Assembly (NCBI GenBank): GCA_903842575.1
Contig: CAIMMM010000127.1
Location: 30,106-94,105, forward strand
Length of the DNA: 64,000 nt
DNA from: an uncultured Bacteroidota bacterium
GTDB lineage: Bacteria; Bacteroidota; Bacteroidia; Flavobacteriales; Flavobacteriaceae
Direction: 5' to 3'
Positions within the stretch are counted from its first letter, which is position 1. Each line of letters opens with the position of its first letter. The notes beneath the pieces were generated by a model, which was given only the letters and a program-made list of their open reading frames with translations, did no database searches and was not told the origin of the DNA. This document shows positions 43,704 through 50,448 of the stretch, piece after piece. Position numbers and translations under genes: made by a program.

Positions 43704-44117
43704 ATGAAAAAATATTTTAGCTTTTTAATAATTTTAGCTTTTACAATAAGTTGTGACACTGGAAGTTTTAATAATAAAAATCCCTATTTACCCAATTATC
43801 CCGTTAATGTAATTATAAATTTGAGCTTGCCTCAATATAGTAATTTGCAATTTGCCAGCAATCATGTAGTGGTTTCAGGTGGTGTAAATGGAATTGTTGT
43901 TTTTAATACCGGGAGCGATTTCGTTGCTTTTGATTTAGCGTGTCCGAATCAGGCTTTAAGCGCATGTTCCACGATGACTATAAATGGGATAAACGCAACT
44001 TGTCCCTGTGACAATGCTGTTTACAGTTTGTTTTCTGGGCAAAGTCCAGGTCTTCAATACCCAATGAAACAATACCGTATTGACAATAGTGGAGGCACTT
44101 TGATTATTTATAATTAA
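43704..44117 (+). CDS. Rieske-fold-like lipoprotein lacking canonical ligands
   Basis: Lipobox TISC; LACPNQALSACSTMTINGINATCPCDNAVYSLFSGQSPGLQYPMKQYRI. Confidence 0.6.
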   Translation: MKKYFSFLIILAFTISCDTGSFNNKNPYLPNYPVNVIINLSLPQYSNLQFASNHVVVSGGVNGIVVFNTGSDFVAFDLACPNQALSACSTMTINGINATCPCDNAVYSLFSGQSPGLQYPMKQYRIDNSGGTLIIYN

Positions 44118-46276
44118 AACTTCATTGTCATTCCTACTAAGAAATTAGTTCCCGCTTGAGGATAATAATAAGGGTATATATCATACATATAGCCATTAGA
44201 GATATATTTTTTGTTGAAAATATTGTTTGCTAATCCCGATAAAACAATAGTTTTGAAAACTGATTTCATCTTAATTTCGTAGGCAATATTTAAATCATTG
44301 ACGAAATAATCGGGTAATTTTGCTTCCGGTAATTCAATATTATTCAAGTATTGCTCGCCCACAAATTTTGACATCCAAGAAATTTGAAAATTATCAATTG
44401 GTTTATATACCAAAATATTCCCTGCAATAACCGACGGCGAATAGGCAATATCTTTGGTGCCAAAATTTGTTCCGGCAACATTTAAGTCCACATTTTTATT
44501 CCTACTTACTGTAACATTCGGATGCATTATAAATTGCTTTGACAATGAAATAGTGGCGTCAACTTCCAAACCCAAACGGTAACTCTTTTCGCTATTGGAA
44601 CGAATTGGATTGCCAACACCGTCCAAATTCCCAGTTAAAATCAGCTGATCTTTGTAGGCCATGTAATAAATATTGGCATTGCATTTTACTCTTTCTGAAA
44701 CATAGCGCCAACCCAATTCATAGTCATCCAGCTTTTCAGGTTTGGCTCCATGCCTATCGGCAGACAGGTTTTCTCCTTCATAATCGGTTCGGTTTGGTTC
44801 CCGATTGGCTTTCGCATAAGAGAAATACAAGGTGTTTTTGGAATTCAATTCATAATTCAATCCTGCTTTTGGGTTGAAGAAATTAAACGTATCATCCACC
44901 AAAGTTGGCCGAATTCCATCCGCTTTATAGTTTACATTTCGGTATTGCAAATCACCAAACAAACTAATTTTTTTTGTGATTTGACAATTGGCTTTCGCAA
45001 AAAATGTCGCGTCAGTTTTGGTTGCGGAATTATCATAATAGTGATCTCCCAGTTCACTTTGTGAAGCATATCTTGCCCAAATAACCCGCCCAAAATGTTT
45101 GCCGTCATATTCGTTCCAACTACCTCCAAAAATCAAATCTAATTTGTCATTTTTGTAGTTTGCCGAAAAAGTTGTTCCATAAAAATTATTGTCCAACCAT
45201 TTTTGACAAATCAAATCGGTTGTAATTTCTGTGGCAATAGGAAATAAACCGTAGTCTGTAAAATCGGCATCTTCTTTATAATTTTCATAGTAGCCTTTCC
45301 CTTTGGTATAATGGAACGCTAGGTTTGTATTCCAATTTTCCGAAACTTTTTCGTTCCAATGCAATTGATAATGGTCTTGTTGATAGTTGTCGGTTTCATT
45401 GGCGTAATAACGTGTATTCCCTAATTCATCGGTAAAAATTCCGGCGGAGTTAAAAGTTCTGTTCGTGATTAATGTTGTTTCATCAATGCCGTTCCAAGAC
45501 TGGTACATTTTTTCGGTTCCGCCAAAAACTAGAGCTTTGATTAGCATTGTTTTTCCAACATAGGTTCCTTGCAAAAAATAGGATTTTAAATCCGATGAAG
45601 CTCTGTCGACATAACCTTGGGAATTAATATTTGACAATCTCCCCGCCAATTCAAAATGATCATTTAGCAATCCTGTACTGAATTTTACAGTGCTTTTTCG
45701 GGTGTTAAAACTCCCCCCAGAATTAGAAATTTCTCCCAAACTTTGTTTTGAATACGAATCGGTTAACATGTTCAAACTGGCACCAAAAGCGCCAGCGCCA
45801 TTTGTAGAAGTCCCAACGCCGCGTTGTAATTGCACGCTTTCAACCGATGAGGCAAAGTCAGGCAAGTCAACAAAATAAGTTCCGCTTCCTTCAGCATCGT
45901 TATAGGGAATTCCGTTTATGGTTACGTTGACTCTAGTAGCATCGCTTCCGCGTACACGAATTCCGGCATAGCCAACACCATTTCCTGCATCGGAAGTTGT
46001 GATAACTGAAGGTAAAAAGTTCATTAAAACGGGAATGTCTTGCCCAAGATTTCGAAACTTAATTTCCTTTTTATCCAAATTACTGAACGAAACCGGTGTT
46101 TTAGTAGTGACACGAACCGCCGAAACGAGCACTTCGTCAAGTTGATTAACTTTTAAAGTGTCTTTTGGTTTTTCTTGGGAAAAAGAGGAGAAAGAAGTAA
46201 GAAGTAAGAGAAAATAAAGCACTGTCTTGCTTCTTGTTTCTTGTTTCTTGCCTTTCAAGTTAAATAAAGTAATCAT
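44114..46276 (-). CDS. TonB-dependent receptor, predicted thiamin(e)-related uptake
   Basis: Plug GVGYAGIRVRGSDATRVNVTINGIPYND; TPP riboswitch immediately upstream. Confidence 0.85.
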   Translation of the reverse strand: MITLFNLKGKKQETRSKTVLYFLLLLTSFSSFSQEKPKDTLKVNQLDEVLVSAVRVTTKTPVSFSNLDKKEIKFRNLGQDIPVLMNFLPSVITTSDAGNGVGYAGIRVRGSDATRVNVTINGIPYNDAEGSGTYFVDLPDFASSVESVQLQRGVGTSTNGAGAFGASLNMLTDSYSKQSLGEISNSGGSFNTRKSTVKFSTGLLNDHFELAGRLSNINSQGYVDRASSDLKSYFLQGTYVGKTMLIKALVFGGTEKMYQSWNGIDETTLITNRTFNSAGIFTDELGNTRYYANETDNYQQDHYQLHWNEKVSENWNTNLAFHYTKGKGYYENYKEDADFTDYGLFPIATEITTDLICQKWLDNNFYGTTFSANYKNDKLDLIFGGSWNEYDGKHFGRVIWARYASQSELGDHYYDNSATKTDATFFAKANCQITKKISLFGDLQYRNVNYKADGIRPTLVDDTFNFFNPKAGLNYELNSKNTLYFSYAKANREPNRTDYEGENLSADRHGAKPEKLDDYELGWRYVSERVKCNANIYYMAYKDQLILTGNLDGVGNPIRSNSEKSYRLGLEVDATISLSKQFIMHPNVTVSRNKNVDLNVAGTNFGTKDIAYSPSVIAGNILVYKPIDNFQISWMSKFVGEQYLNNIELPEAKLPDYFVNDLNIAYEIKMKSVFKTIVLSGLANNIFNKKYISNGYMYDIYPYYYPQAGTNFLVGMTMKF
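46226..46253 (-). repeat. 7-bp tandem repeat (CAAGAAA-type, about 4 units) at the 5' end of the TonB receptor
   Basis: Plus strand cttgcttcttgtttcttgtttcttgcct. Confidence 0.8.
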
Positions 46277-46370
46277 CCGTAAAAAATATTACGAATAAAA
46301 AGAGGTAATTATTCTTTGATTAAAAAATTGGTTGTTTCCTTGACTAATGGATAGCGTGCACACTATTTTT

Positions 46371-46448
46371 TGTCATTTTCCCTTAGCAACATTACTTGCT
46401 CAGGTTCATTGGGTATAATCTCAGCTCGTTATTTAGAGCACCCCTTTT
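46371..46448 (-). promoter_or_regulatory. TPP (THI-element) riboswitch
   Basis: Minus strand GGGGTGCTCTAAATAACGAGCTGAGATTATACCCAATGAACCTGAGCAAGTAATGTTGCTAAGGGAAA contains the conserved GCTGAGA, ACCC, GAACCTGA, TAATG and AGGGAA blocks. Confidence 0.93.
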
Positions 46449-46528
46449 GAGACGGCACAAAGATATATAAAGTATTAAGATTGGAGAATTAAGTAGTAAG
46501 GTTTTTTTATGATGCTTTATACATGGTC

Positions 46529-46930: not shown

Positions 46931-48522
46931 TACTGAGGTTGATGCGCAGGTTTTAATAAGTCATTAACGTTTTTTACAGGATTAAAAGTAACCAAAGGAA
47001 CCTCAACAAAAACAGTTATCCATTTTGCCATGGCCCCATTCCAAAGTCCGGGAAGTTCATATCCTTTTAAATCTTTTCCTTTATTATTTTTATGAACAAT
47101 AAAGCCTGTACTATGATCTATGAACTCTATCAGATTAAACTTTTCTCTACGATAATTTTTAATGCCACATACCAAATCTACTGGGTTAAAATGGGTTGCG
47201 TTTGCTAAAATTTTCGCTTGTTCAGGGTTGTTAATATCAACCTGTGAACTTTCAACAATTTGTAAAGAAACATTTCCTTTGGTGCTTTTTATCCAGAAAG
47301 GACCACCACCAGGTTCCCCTTCATTTTTAACCATACCACAAATACGAATAGGCCGATTTAATTTGTTTTTTATACAATCAATTTTGTTAGCCAAAGTATA
47401 TTCGTTGAAATTATCTGTAACACCAATATTCAATTTTTTCTGCATGAAATTGGTAATTAATTCGATGTTTTTTTCATCCACGCGCTGGCTATCAATATCC
47501 TTTAAAATTTGAAAAATTTCTTGTTGCAAATCCAATAAAATTCCAGCCAACCCCTTTTTATAAAACGTAGTCTCTTCAATATGATTTTGGATAACATTAT
47601 CAATATTTTTAATAAAAATTATATCCGCATCTAGCATATTTAAATTATGAATCAATGCTCCGTGCCCTCCTGGGCGAAAAACCAATTGTCCGTTTTCATT
47701 ACGAAAAGGCGCATTATTTATTGTAACCGCTATTGTATCGCTGCTTTTGTCTTGATATGAATAACTTATATGGAGTGTCGTTCCTGATTTTTTTTCTACT
47801 TTTCCCTTTACTTCATCAATAATTTCATTGAATAATTTTTCATGGCTTTCAGAAACCGTAAAATGCAAATGTGAAACCGCATTAGACGCTGCATAAAAAG
47901 CACATTCATTCAAATGCTCTTCTATAGGAGTTGCGATATGGGTGGAATATTTATGGAAATCCAAAGCGCCTTTTGGCATATTAGCAAAATCAAAATGGTT
48001 CGAATCTAGCATCAATTTTATAAAATGATAGCTTTTTTCATGACCTTCAAGTGAGTAATAATTAGCTAATTGCTGTTTTAATTTAGCTTTTACAACTTCA
48101 TAAAACGGAAATTTTTCAATTCCAGCCAAAAAAACGGGAAGGTTTTTATCTTTTTTTCTGTTAATGTAGGCGTTTATCGTTTCGTTTTCATGATCAAATT
48201 CCATTAAGAATTCACTTAAAAACTTAAACATTCTAGAAGCCGCTCCCGAAGCCGGGACAAATTTTTTAAGTTTTAAATTTGATTTTTCTTTATCAAAGAG
48301 AGAGGCATAATTTTGTATTTCTTCTAATGTTAATTTTACAATTCCATCGTCAACTGTTGCTGGTTTGTCTAAACAAATTTTTGGAATTCCCAATTCATAC
48401 AAAAACAACTCCCCTTCAATTTTATCCAAGGAAATACCATGCGCTTTGATTTGCTCAAAGTCGGAATCTGTTAGTCCGTATTTAGTTGTTAAACTCTTTT
48501 TTGTTGTAAAATCTTCTTCCAT
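46930..48522 (-). CDS. DUF4301 family protein with UDPGP-like nucleotidyltransferase motifs
   Basis: FVPASGAASRMFK; RPGGHGALIHNLNMLDADIIFIKNIDNV; EGEPGGGPFWIKS. Confidence 0.75.
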   Translation of the reverse strand: MEEDFTTKKSLTTKYGLTDSDFEQIKAHGISLDKIEGELFLYELGIPKICLDKPATVDDGIVKLTLEEIQNYASLFDKEKSNLKLKKFVPASGAASRMFKFLSEFLMEFDHENETINAYINRKKDKNLPVFLAGIEKFPFYEVVKAKLKQQLANYYSLEGHEKSYHFIKLMLDSNHFDFANMPKGALDFHKYSTHIATPIEEHLNECAFYAASNAVSHLHFTVSESHEKLFNEIIDEVKGKVEKKSGTTLHISYSYQDKSSDTIAVTINNAPFRNENGQLVFRPGGHGALIHNLNMLDADIIFIKNIDNVIQNHIEETTFYKKGLAGILLDLQQEIFQILKDIDSQRVDEKNIELITNFMQKKLNIGVTDNFNEYTLANKIDCIKNKLNRPIRICGMVKNEGEPGGGPFWIKSTKGNVSLQIVESSQVDINNPEQAKILANATHFNPVDLVCGIKNYRREKFNLIEFIDHSTGFIVHKNNKGKDLKGYELPGLWNGAMAKWITVFVEVPLVTFNPVKNVNDLLKPAHQPQ

Positions 48523-49106
48523 TCTAAATAGCCAAAAATGGCAATAATTGTAAATATAAAATATTGGATGCTAGTGAATGAATAGCCTTTATAAAAATAC
48601 AATGGAATTGAAATGATATCGCCAATAATCCATAAAATCCAATTCTCCATTTTCCTTTTTGCCATCAACCACATTCCAACAAAGAAAATTCCCGTGACTA
48701 GTGTATCAACATAAGAAGTCCAATGGGTAAATTTATTAAAAAAAGTATAAACGACAACAACAAATAGGATGGTTAATATAAAAATAATGATTGCCTGCTT
48801 TTTTTCGGCTGTTGTCATTTTGGAAATTGGAAAAACCACAACATCATCTTGTTTTCTAGTCCAATGATACCAACCGTAAATACTCATCACTACATAATAA
48901 AAATTAATCATCATGTCGCCAAGATAGGACCATTTCCAAAACAAATACACATATATTGCCGTATTGATTATACCGGTAGGGAATACCCAAATATTATCTT
49001 TTTTGGCAAACCAAACACTCAATAATCCAAAAATTATAGCACTGATTTCCAAGACTATTTCTTGTATGGGAAAGTTTTTATATTGTTCAAAAATAAAATC
49101 AAACAT
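48489..49106 (-). CDS. PnuC-family vitamin/nucleoside transporter
   Basis: WVFPTGIINTAIYVYLFWKWSYLGDMMINFYYVVMSIYGWYHW; PnuC-like topology. Confidence 0.85.
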   Translation of the reverse strand: MFDFIFEQYKNFPIQEIVLEISAIIFGLLSVWFAKKDNIWVFPTGIINTAIYVYLFWKWSYLGDMMINFYYVVMSIYGWYHWTRKQDDVVVFPISKMTTAEKKQAIIIFILTILFVVVVYTFFNKFTHWTSYVDTLVTGIFFVGMWLMAKRKMENWILWIIGDIISIPLYFYKGYSFTSIQYFIFTIIAIFGYLEWKKILQQKRV

Positions 49107-49819
49107 TAGTCAAAAAAGTTTAGATCGTTCTCGAAAGCGGTTCCAATAACTACCATATCTGCTCCAGCTTTGAATGCGTCATCAATTTCAGTTTTAGAAC
49201 GAATGCCTCCTCCAACGATTAATGGAATAGAAATATTTTCGGAAACTCTTTTTATCATTTCTAAAGGAACTGCATTTTGCGCGCCACTTCCCGCTTCGAG
49301 ATAGATTAATTTATTACCCATAAATTCCCCTGCTTTGGAGGTTTGAGCTACATATTCTGAATTATTTCTTGGCAACGGCTTAGTTTTACTTACTCTTTCC
49401 ACTGCGGTTTTGCCTCCGCTTTCTATTAAAATATAGCCCGTAGAGATGATTTCTAAATTGGTTTTTTCTAATATTGGAATTGCTTGAATTTGATATTCCA
49501 CCAAATAATCTGGGTTGCGTCCCGAAAGTAATATAAGAAATAAAATCCCGTCAGCTTCCGAAGAAATTTGGGATGGATTTCCCGGGAAAAGCAAAATAGG
49601 CAAGGCTGTTTTTTGTTTTAATTGAATAATCAATTCACCTAAGTTATTCCCTTCAAACGAACTTCCTCCAACAAAAATATGCGTTGCCGACGATTGATTG
49701 ATTTTAAAAATCAAATTATCAAGTTGCTCCCAAATAATTTTATCAGGGTCTAACAAGATGGCTAATAATTTTTGATTATTGGACTTGGCGTTTACTATTT
49801 GATGGTAGTTGTTTTTCAT
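49106..49819 (-). CDS. Geranylgeranylglyceryl/heptaprenylglyceryl phosphate synthase family
   Basis: AILLDPDKI, FVGGSSF, PILLFPGNPSQIS, YLEAGSG, IPLIVGGGIRS. Confidence 0.9.
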   Translation of the reverse strand: MKNNYHQIVNAKSNNQKLLAILLDPDKIIWEQLDNLIFKINQSSATHIFVGGSSFEGNNLGELIIQLKQKTALPILLFPGNPSQISSEADGILFLILLSGRNPDYLVEYQIQAIPILEKTNLEIISTGYILIESGGKTAVERVSKTKPLPRNNSEYVAQTSKAGEFMGNKLIYLEAGSGAQNAVPLEMIKRVSENISIPLIVGGGIRSKTEIDDAFKAGADMVVIGTAFENDLNFFD

Positions 49820-50448
49820 TTTTCAAAAACCCAAACCACGGTATAATTTTCAATTTCTTCAAACTGTACTTCAAACGTTACTTTCAAGTTGTTGAAATGT
49901 AGTAATGCACCCGTTTTTTTATCCGTAATTTCAAAAGGCGCAACAAAGATATGATCTTTGAAACTAATGCCTACTTCATTTCTAACCTTGAAAACCGCTT
50001 CTTTAATGCCCCAAATTACAGTCAATTTTGAAATATAATCTGTTTTATTTTCTTTTGTTAAATAAACAAATTCTTCTTCGGCAAATTTATGAGCGATGAT
50101 TTCTATCTTTTCTCTTCGCATTTCCAAATCAATACCAACATTTCGATTACTTATAATAATTACCGAAAAGCCATGGGAATGCGAAATAGATATATGCGTT
50201 CCATTGTGCAAATGGGGTTTGCCAAATTCGTCATAATATAAATCAAAATCCGAGAATCCTGCTACGTTAAGCAATTTTCTGACACTTAAAAACCCTTTTT
50301 GATGACTTTCGGATTTCATGTTTTCTAAACGAGCCAAGGAAACATCTTTTAGAGCAAGTTCCCTAAAAAGTTCATCAAAAGATTCAGTTATTTTCCAAAC
50401 AAAAATTTGAGTTTGTTGGTCTAAAGAAATGGTTTTATATAGCGGCAT
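49816..50448 (-). CDS. 4'-phosphopantetheinyl transferase superfamily protein
   Basis: ISISHSHGFSVIII, VGIDLEM, WGIKEAVFK. Confidence 0.9.
   Translation of the reverse strand: MPLYKTISLDQQTQIFVWKITESFDELFRELALKDVSLARLENMKSESHQKGFLSVRKLLNVAGFSDFDLYYDEFGKPHLHNGTHISISHSHGFSVIIISNRNVGIDLEMRREKIEIIAHKFAEEEFVYLTKENKTDYISKLTVIWGIKEAVFKVRNEVGISFKDHIFVAPFEITDKKTGALLHFNNLKVTFEVQFEEIENYTVVWVFEK

Follow-up and report, generated by a model that had tools for sequence, protein, structure and literature searches.

The TPP riboswitch is a textbook example of how RNA recognizes a pyrophosphate, and no other single riboswitch class is as abundant in bacteria (PMC10043782). In the canonical aptamer the pyrimidine is sensed by the T-loop CUGAGA, and the pyrophosphate is held in an internal loop between helices P4 and P5, where G60, C77 and G78 (numbering of E. 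coli thiM) are highly conserved; of these, G78 is the only one reported to be in direct contact with the pyrophosphate (PMC3764141).

In Bacteroides thetaiotaomicron, thiamin uptake involves the outer-membrane transporter OMthi (BT2390) and PnuT, whose transcript levels are little affected by thiamin (PMC5613172). The locus described here resembles the OMthi locus in the types of leader and genes, with a leader of TPP-riboswitch ancestry 5' of a gene for a (here predicted) outer-membrane TonB-dependent thiamin transporter and with a PnuC-type inner-membrane partner, but the OMthi leader is described as a TPP riboswitch (PMC5613172). The HMP-PP riboswitch (thiS motif) also senses a thiamin-pathway compound other than TPP, as we propose below for the present element, but its fold is unrelated, small and terminator-embedded (PMC6478431); a permissive Rfam scan of the leader gave no thiS-motif match. 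Variant riboswitches (guanine/2'-dG, c-di-GMP/c-AMP-GMP and the ykkC subtypes) share with the present element an old scaffold with a changed binding pocket, and members hidden among sub-threshold or mis-filed sequences, while none of the classes named in the consulted passages of that review is a variant of the TPP aptamer (PMC7266159). A literature search, with subscription papers and preprints outside its scope and hence weak as evidence, found no TPP-aptamer variant of this kind.

The stretch of DNA that was analyzed as a whole (64 kb, referred to as the window) harbors, 5' of a receptor gene, an element that is predicted to work like a TPP riboswitch and descends from one. This element is probably a cis-regulatory switch in which the pyrimidine half of the TPP riboswitch has been kept and the pyrophosphate half lost, and which controls translation of an outer-membrane thiamin receptor. 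The genes and the parts of the element are:

44114-46276, minus strand: TonB-dependent receptor, 720 aa, predicted outer-membrane thiamin receptor (PF07715 plug and PF00593 barrel, over cutoff)
48489-49106, minus strand: PnuC-family inner-membrane transporter, candidate thiamin transporter (PnuT), the sole one in the genome
46361-46455, minus strand: TPP-like element, extent of the RF00059 alignment over the entire model
46379-46453, minus strand: variant aptamer core, GUCUCAAAAGGGGUGC...AAGGGA
46440-46448, minus strand: P2 5' strand within AAAAGGGGU, GGGU pairing with ACCC at 46414-46411; alternatively the anti-P2 strand
46411-46414, minus strand: ACCC, P2 3' strand, invariant across alignments
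46419-46424, minus strand: CUGAGA, T-loop sensing the pyrimidine (HMP ring), intact
46381-46404, minus strand: P4-P5 arm CCU-G-AGCAA-GUAAUG-UUGCU-A-AGG, a helix with one G.A mismatch instead of the pocket

When the 64-kb window was scanned at the Rfam gathering thresholds, a tRNA was the sole match and no TPP riboswitch was found. The permissive scan of the leader gave an RF00059 alignment at 46455-46361 (minus strand) that spans the entire model with a score of 43.5 bits (E = 2.1e-7), i.e., a significant match, which is left uncalled at the standard threshold because the curated gathering cutoff is 54.3 bits. The element is present as a single copy in the 2.67-Mb host genome, where the runner-up (13.9 bits, E = 6.4) is at chance level. 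Canonical TPP switches in Flavobacterium score 65-80 bits with the same model. The low score has one specific, systematic cause, namely that the pyrophosphate pocket has been replaced.

An earlier sequence-only reading had called the leader a TPP riboswitch with the conserved THI blocks and had proposed an RF00059 search as a check. The blocks do occur in order on the minus strand 5' of the receptor ORF, but the last one is non-canonical, and the search yields the full-length sub-threshold alignment but no match at the gathering threshold. The name itself does not hold as stated; the score falls short of the family cutoff, and the residues that bind the pyrophosphate, by which TPP recognition is defined, are missing from this leader and from essentially all of its orthologues, so that filing the element as a TPP riboswitch is unwarranted.

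Compared to the TPP riboswitch (THI element, RF00059), P2, P3, the CUGAGA T-loop, J2-4 GAAC, the L5 loop UAAU and the order of these parts are the same, while the J4-5/J5-4 pocket (C77/G78) is a helix, P1 is minimal and the score falls below the Rfam cutoff. The pyrimidine half is kept in the window as GGGGUGC, GCUGAGA, AUACCC and GAAC, and the UAAU loop, which docks on P3, is present at the level of the sequence. In the same genus, canonical elements have the pattern CCU-GAU-NNNN-loop-NNNN-CG-U-AGG; in the last THI block, the canonical CCUGAU...CGUAGGG is replaced in the window by CCUGA...CUAAGGG, which means that C77 and G78 are gone, while the G60 equivalent is kept. The internal loop is thereby turned into a base-paired stretch interrupted by a lone G.A mismatch. 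Because the half that grips the pyrophosphate is zipped into base pairs, the element probably responds to something other than TPP bound in the conventional manner.

Helix P1 is weak or absent; three base pairs (GUC/GAC) are possible in the window, and these are unconserved among relatives. The sequence UCUC (46452-46449), directly 5' of AAAGGGG, is near-invariant (177 of 193 variant leaders) while its P1 partner is unconserved, and a possible pairing partner within the aptamer is GAGAU. A conserved P1 in which UCUC would form the 5' strand was set aside because the 3' side is unconserved.

The variant occurs all through the genus Flavobacterium and across Flavobacteriaceae, extends to other families of Flavobacteriales and reaches a few further orders. 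For the searches, a covariance model (R2) was built from the variant. At the family level, R2 matched 242 of 251 sampled genomes (229 of 237 genera), mostly with scores in a range occupied by variants only; some 37 matches that scored lower, inspected in part, are a mix of variants with a long P3 (e.g., locus L201) and possible canonical elements. At the order level, 87 of 119 genomes gave matches, and the variant was also found in several members of the same class outside this order (L168, L170, L171, L173 and L175). With R2, canonical elements from the genus reach 21-46 bits, compared to 55-102 bits for most variants and 61.9 bits for the chimera L068 discussed below. A receptor protein search gathered 80 named receptor loci, each of which (80/80) has one variant match 5' of the receptor; an exact scan of the named genomes with a long DNA pattern gave 0 matches.

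The parsed elements fall into form i (CCU-G-P5-A-AGG; 162), form ii (CCUN-G-P5-U-AGG, with a bulged G; 31) and canonical (53). In all 193 variants the CUGAGA and the UAAU-type loop are present (193/193 each) and the G next to P4 (the G60 position) is invariant. C77/G78 are absent in 191 of the 193; the CG preceding NAGG is found in 2/193 variants and in 53/53 canonical elements. In one of the two exceptions (L160) the CG lies inside a fully paired P5, and the other (L182) is better read as canonical. These counts, like those of the base pairs below, are uncorrected for relatedness, although the changes recur in different families.

Pairing in the structure stands at 99.0% over 44 distinct genus-level sequences, and 0 of 500 shuffles attained the covariation score computed for the structure as a whole. 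In the same sequences the pair that replaces the pocket is AU in 22, GC in 21 and GU in one, and unpaired in none; over 41 distinct form-i arms, GC, AU, GU, CG, UG and UA are all found. P4 covaries too (CUUA/UAAG in L042, L069 and L094). P2 (GGGU/ACCC) shows no variation in the alignments, and because it never varies, covariation is silent on this helix. As read from these alignments, a covarying helix replaces the pyrophosphate pocket. Random degeneration of the aptamer was set aside, as the covariation argues against it.

The segment between the promoter and the gene contains the following predicted features:

46458-46465, minus strand: TAnnTTTG -7 promoter box TATCTTTG, assigned by its sequence from the flavobacterial rule
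46342-46374, minus strand: hairpin GAC...GUC between aptamer and platform, of variable sequence in relatives, seen in leader alignment A2
46293-46314, minus strand: hairpin A, GAAUAA (46314-46309)/UUAUUC (46298-46293), with a C-rich loop; in distant families its stem is re-formed from different sequence
46298-46306, minus strand: ACCUCUUUU, anti-P2 partner of AAAAGGGGU by complementarity
46275-46296, minus strand: hairpin B, AUUCGUAA (46296-46289)/UUACGGAU (46282-46275), sequestering the A and U of the AUG at 46276

According to the flavobacterial promoter rule, the box is found at -12 to -5 (PMC9723704), and the transcript is predicted to start at the G of GUCUC (46453). Hairpin A, with the C-rich anti-P2 partner in its loop, overlaps hairpin B. 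Compensatory changes are seen in the stem of hairpin A among relatives, and hairpin B (AUUCGUAA/UUACGRAU), which is 97.9% paired, is likewise conserved with compensatory changes. The short CGTAA/TTACG hairpin noted earlier next to the start codon is real, being the core of the longer hairpin B and part of the predicted expression platform. A terminator platform was set aside, as no U-tract hairpin was seen.

Unconstrained folding of the window leader (RNAfold) gave probabilities of about 0.89 for anti-P2, about 0.10 for P2 and 0.99 for hairpin B. The anti-P2 state is favored in 119 of 132 leaders by a median of 1.8 kcal/mol, such that a modest binding energy could flip the switch. Pair counts for anti-P2 on the MAFFT leader alignment A2 were dropped because a length change (AAA/AAAA and CCCC/CCUC) shifts the columns, and they were replaced by duplex folding of each leader with dinucleotide shuffles; the anti-P2 pairing beats the shuffles in about 70% of the leaders. 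Its letters differ by lineage, i.e., AAAGGGGU/ACCCCUUU, AACGGGGU/ACUCCGU, ACAGGGGUG/UGCCCCUGU, CGGGGU/ACCUCG and AAAAGGGGU/ACCUCUUUU. What sequence and covariation do show is that a helix replaces the pocket, that the P2 and anti-P2 pairings exclude each other, that hairpins A and B are present and that the element is strictly linked to one receptor.

In the mechanism that we propose, the first strand of P2, AAAAGGGGU, would in the ligand-free state pair with the C-rich loop just upstream of the gene. Upon ligand binding, P2 (GGGU/ACCC) would form and release the C-rich loop, which would shift the balance of the overlapping hairpins A (with the C-rich loop) and B (with the start codon). The ligand would be a molecule of the thiamin family, recognized via its pyrimidine ring with the pyrophosphate dispensable, most likely unphosphorylated thiamin, and it would presumably switch receptor synthesis off, which is what one expects of an uptake gene. 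The two states could not be told apart by a nested-fold estimate of how exposed the start codon is; because hairpin B closes the AUG in either state, the folding model is silent on the sign, and the exchange of A and B as well as the sign rest on argument. Translational control is compatible with the OMthi and PnuT transcripts barely responding to thiamin (PMC5613172). In a distant lineage (L196, L197, L200 and L209) there is no evident hairpin B, and about 25 nt separate hairpin A from the AUG downstream of it, such that the output step may differ there.

The same platform is found behind canonical aptamers in L180, L195 and L199. Locus L068 of Flavobacterium (positions 322-393, platform to ~510) has, 5' of the receptor, a 5' strand and platform of the variant type combined with a canonical P4-P5 arm with CG, i.e., it is, as judged from its sequence, a natural chimera produced by a domain swap. 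The platform is therefore older than, or independent of, the change in the pocket. These data also bear on the possibility that TPP is still sensed, with a rearranged P4-P5 arm in which the conserved G, as a mismatch or bulge, binds Mg-pyrophosphate anew, perhaps with lower affinity. This alternative is consistent with the canonical arm on the same platform in L068, with the canonical TPP aptamers that sister lineages have 5' of the same receptor and with the invariant G at the G60 position, but C77 and G78, the latter being the direct pyrophosphate contact (PMC3764141), are replaced by covarying Watson-Crick pairs, and we regard continued TPP sensing as possible yet unlikely. The most likely reading is a translational switch that is predicted to bind thiamin without need of the pyrophosphate.

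All variant elements examined are located 5' of orthologues of the window receptor, mostly with 39-77% identity, which falls below this range in a few distant members. In sister lineages the same receptor is found behind canonical aptamers (L172, L174, L177-L181, L185, L194, L195 and L199), which gives good support to the earlier suggestion that the receptor is linked to thiamin. The host genome points in the same direction; it lacks thiC, encodes thiamin pyrophosphokinase and has one PnuC-family protein, located 2.2 kb upstream of the receptor and 38% identical to transporters behind canonical switches in related species, and on these grounds the host is a predicted thiamin scavenger. Assignment of the receptor as an outer-membrane thiamin receptor, a predicted transport function, is thus supported. 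In Flavobacterium, thiC is found in 57 of 121 genomes, and canonical switches (65-80 bits) track thiC; they are located 5' of thiamin-synthesis (thiC) operons and also 5' of a PnuC-type transporter (L084, L086-L088). Synthesis and inner-membrane uptake are thus under canonical aptamers, and the outer-membrane receptor under the variant, in the same cell.

The gene contexts also bear on the proposal that the switch senses another pyrimidine-bearing compound, i.e., HMP, TMP or HMP-PP, rather than thiamin. Retention of the pyrimidine-binding half as the only half kept would fit such a ligand; the variant is, however, also present in genomes that lack thiC, in which one would not expect intermediates of the synthesis, and the uptake receptor is the only associated gene, which makes this proposal improbable. 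It is very unlikely that the leader is a ligand-blind relic kept as a structured element (e.g., responsive to temperature or to a protein): the start codon does reside in a stable hairpin and ligand binding is a prediction, but structure alone would not require invariant pyrimidine-half ligand contacts in 193 leaders. Still less credible is the original view of an ordinary TPP riboswitch with a score lowered by drift, because, while the pyrimidine half, loop L5 and the arrangement match RF00059, the low score has a single systematic cause that is conserved across hundreds of genomes, the canonical switches found in the same genus reach 65-80 bits, and both the form counts and the covariation of the pocket-replacing helix disfavor it.

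More tentatively, with chances just short of even, the thiamin-sensing switch may represent a widespread flavobacterial class that arose from the TPP riboswitch by closure of its pocket and that responds to thiamin in its unphosphorylated form or to another thiamin compound lacking a pyrophosphate, in which case uptake and synthesis would respond to different signals in the same cell. This arrangement suggests how cells might keep sensing of imported thiamin apart from that of the finished cofactor. A natural, long-conserved pocketless version beside canonical switches in the same genomes allows a direct test of the role of each aptamer half, as well as of the evolution of ligand specificity. 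Annotation at the Rfam cutoff misses the sole thiamin-related switch in many flavobacteria, including the host.

A few further observations concern the neighboring genes and elements. The canonical TPP aptamers 5' of PnuC-family transporters in L084, L086, L087 and L088 are 107-109 nt long, and the loci that were checked (L084, L085 and L088) have a downstream TCATCTCATC with complementarity to GGGGTG, which could give rise to a platform of another kind. In the window, the PnuC-family gene follows genes for GGGP synthase and phosphopantetheinyl transferase (48489-50448), and in L141, from another family, GGGP synthase and PnuC are likewise found near the receptor. Directly behind the receptor, a small converging ORF (43704-44117, plus strand) is conserved in most Flavobacterium loci (40-62% identity) and shows weak similarity to a Rieske-type ferredoxin subunit.
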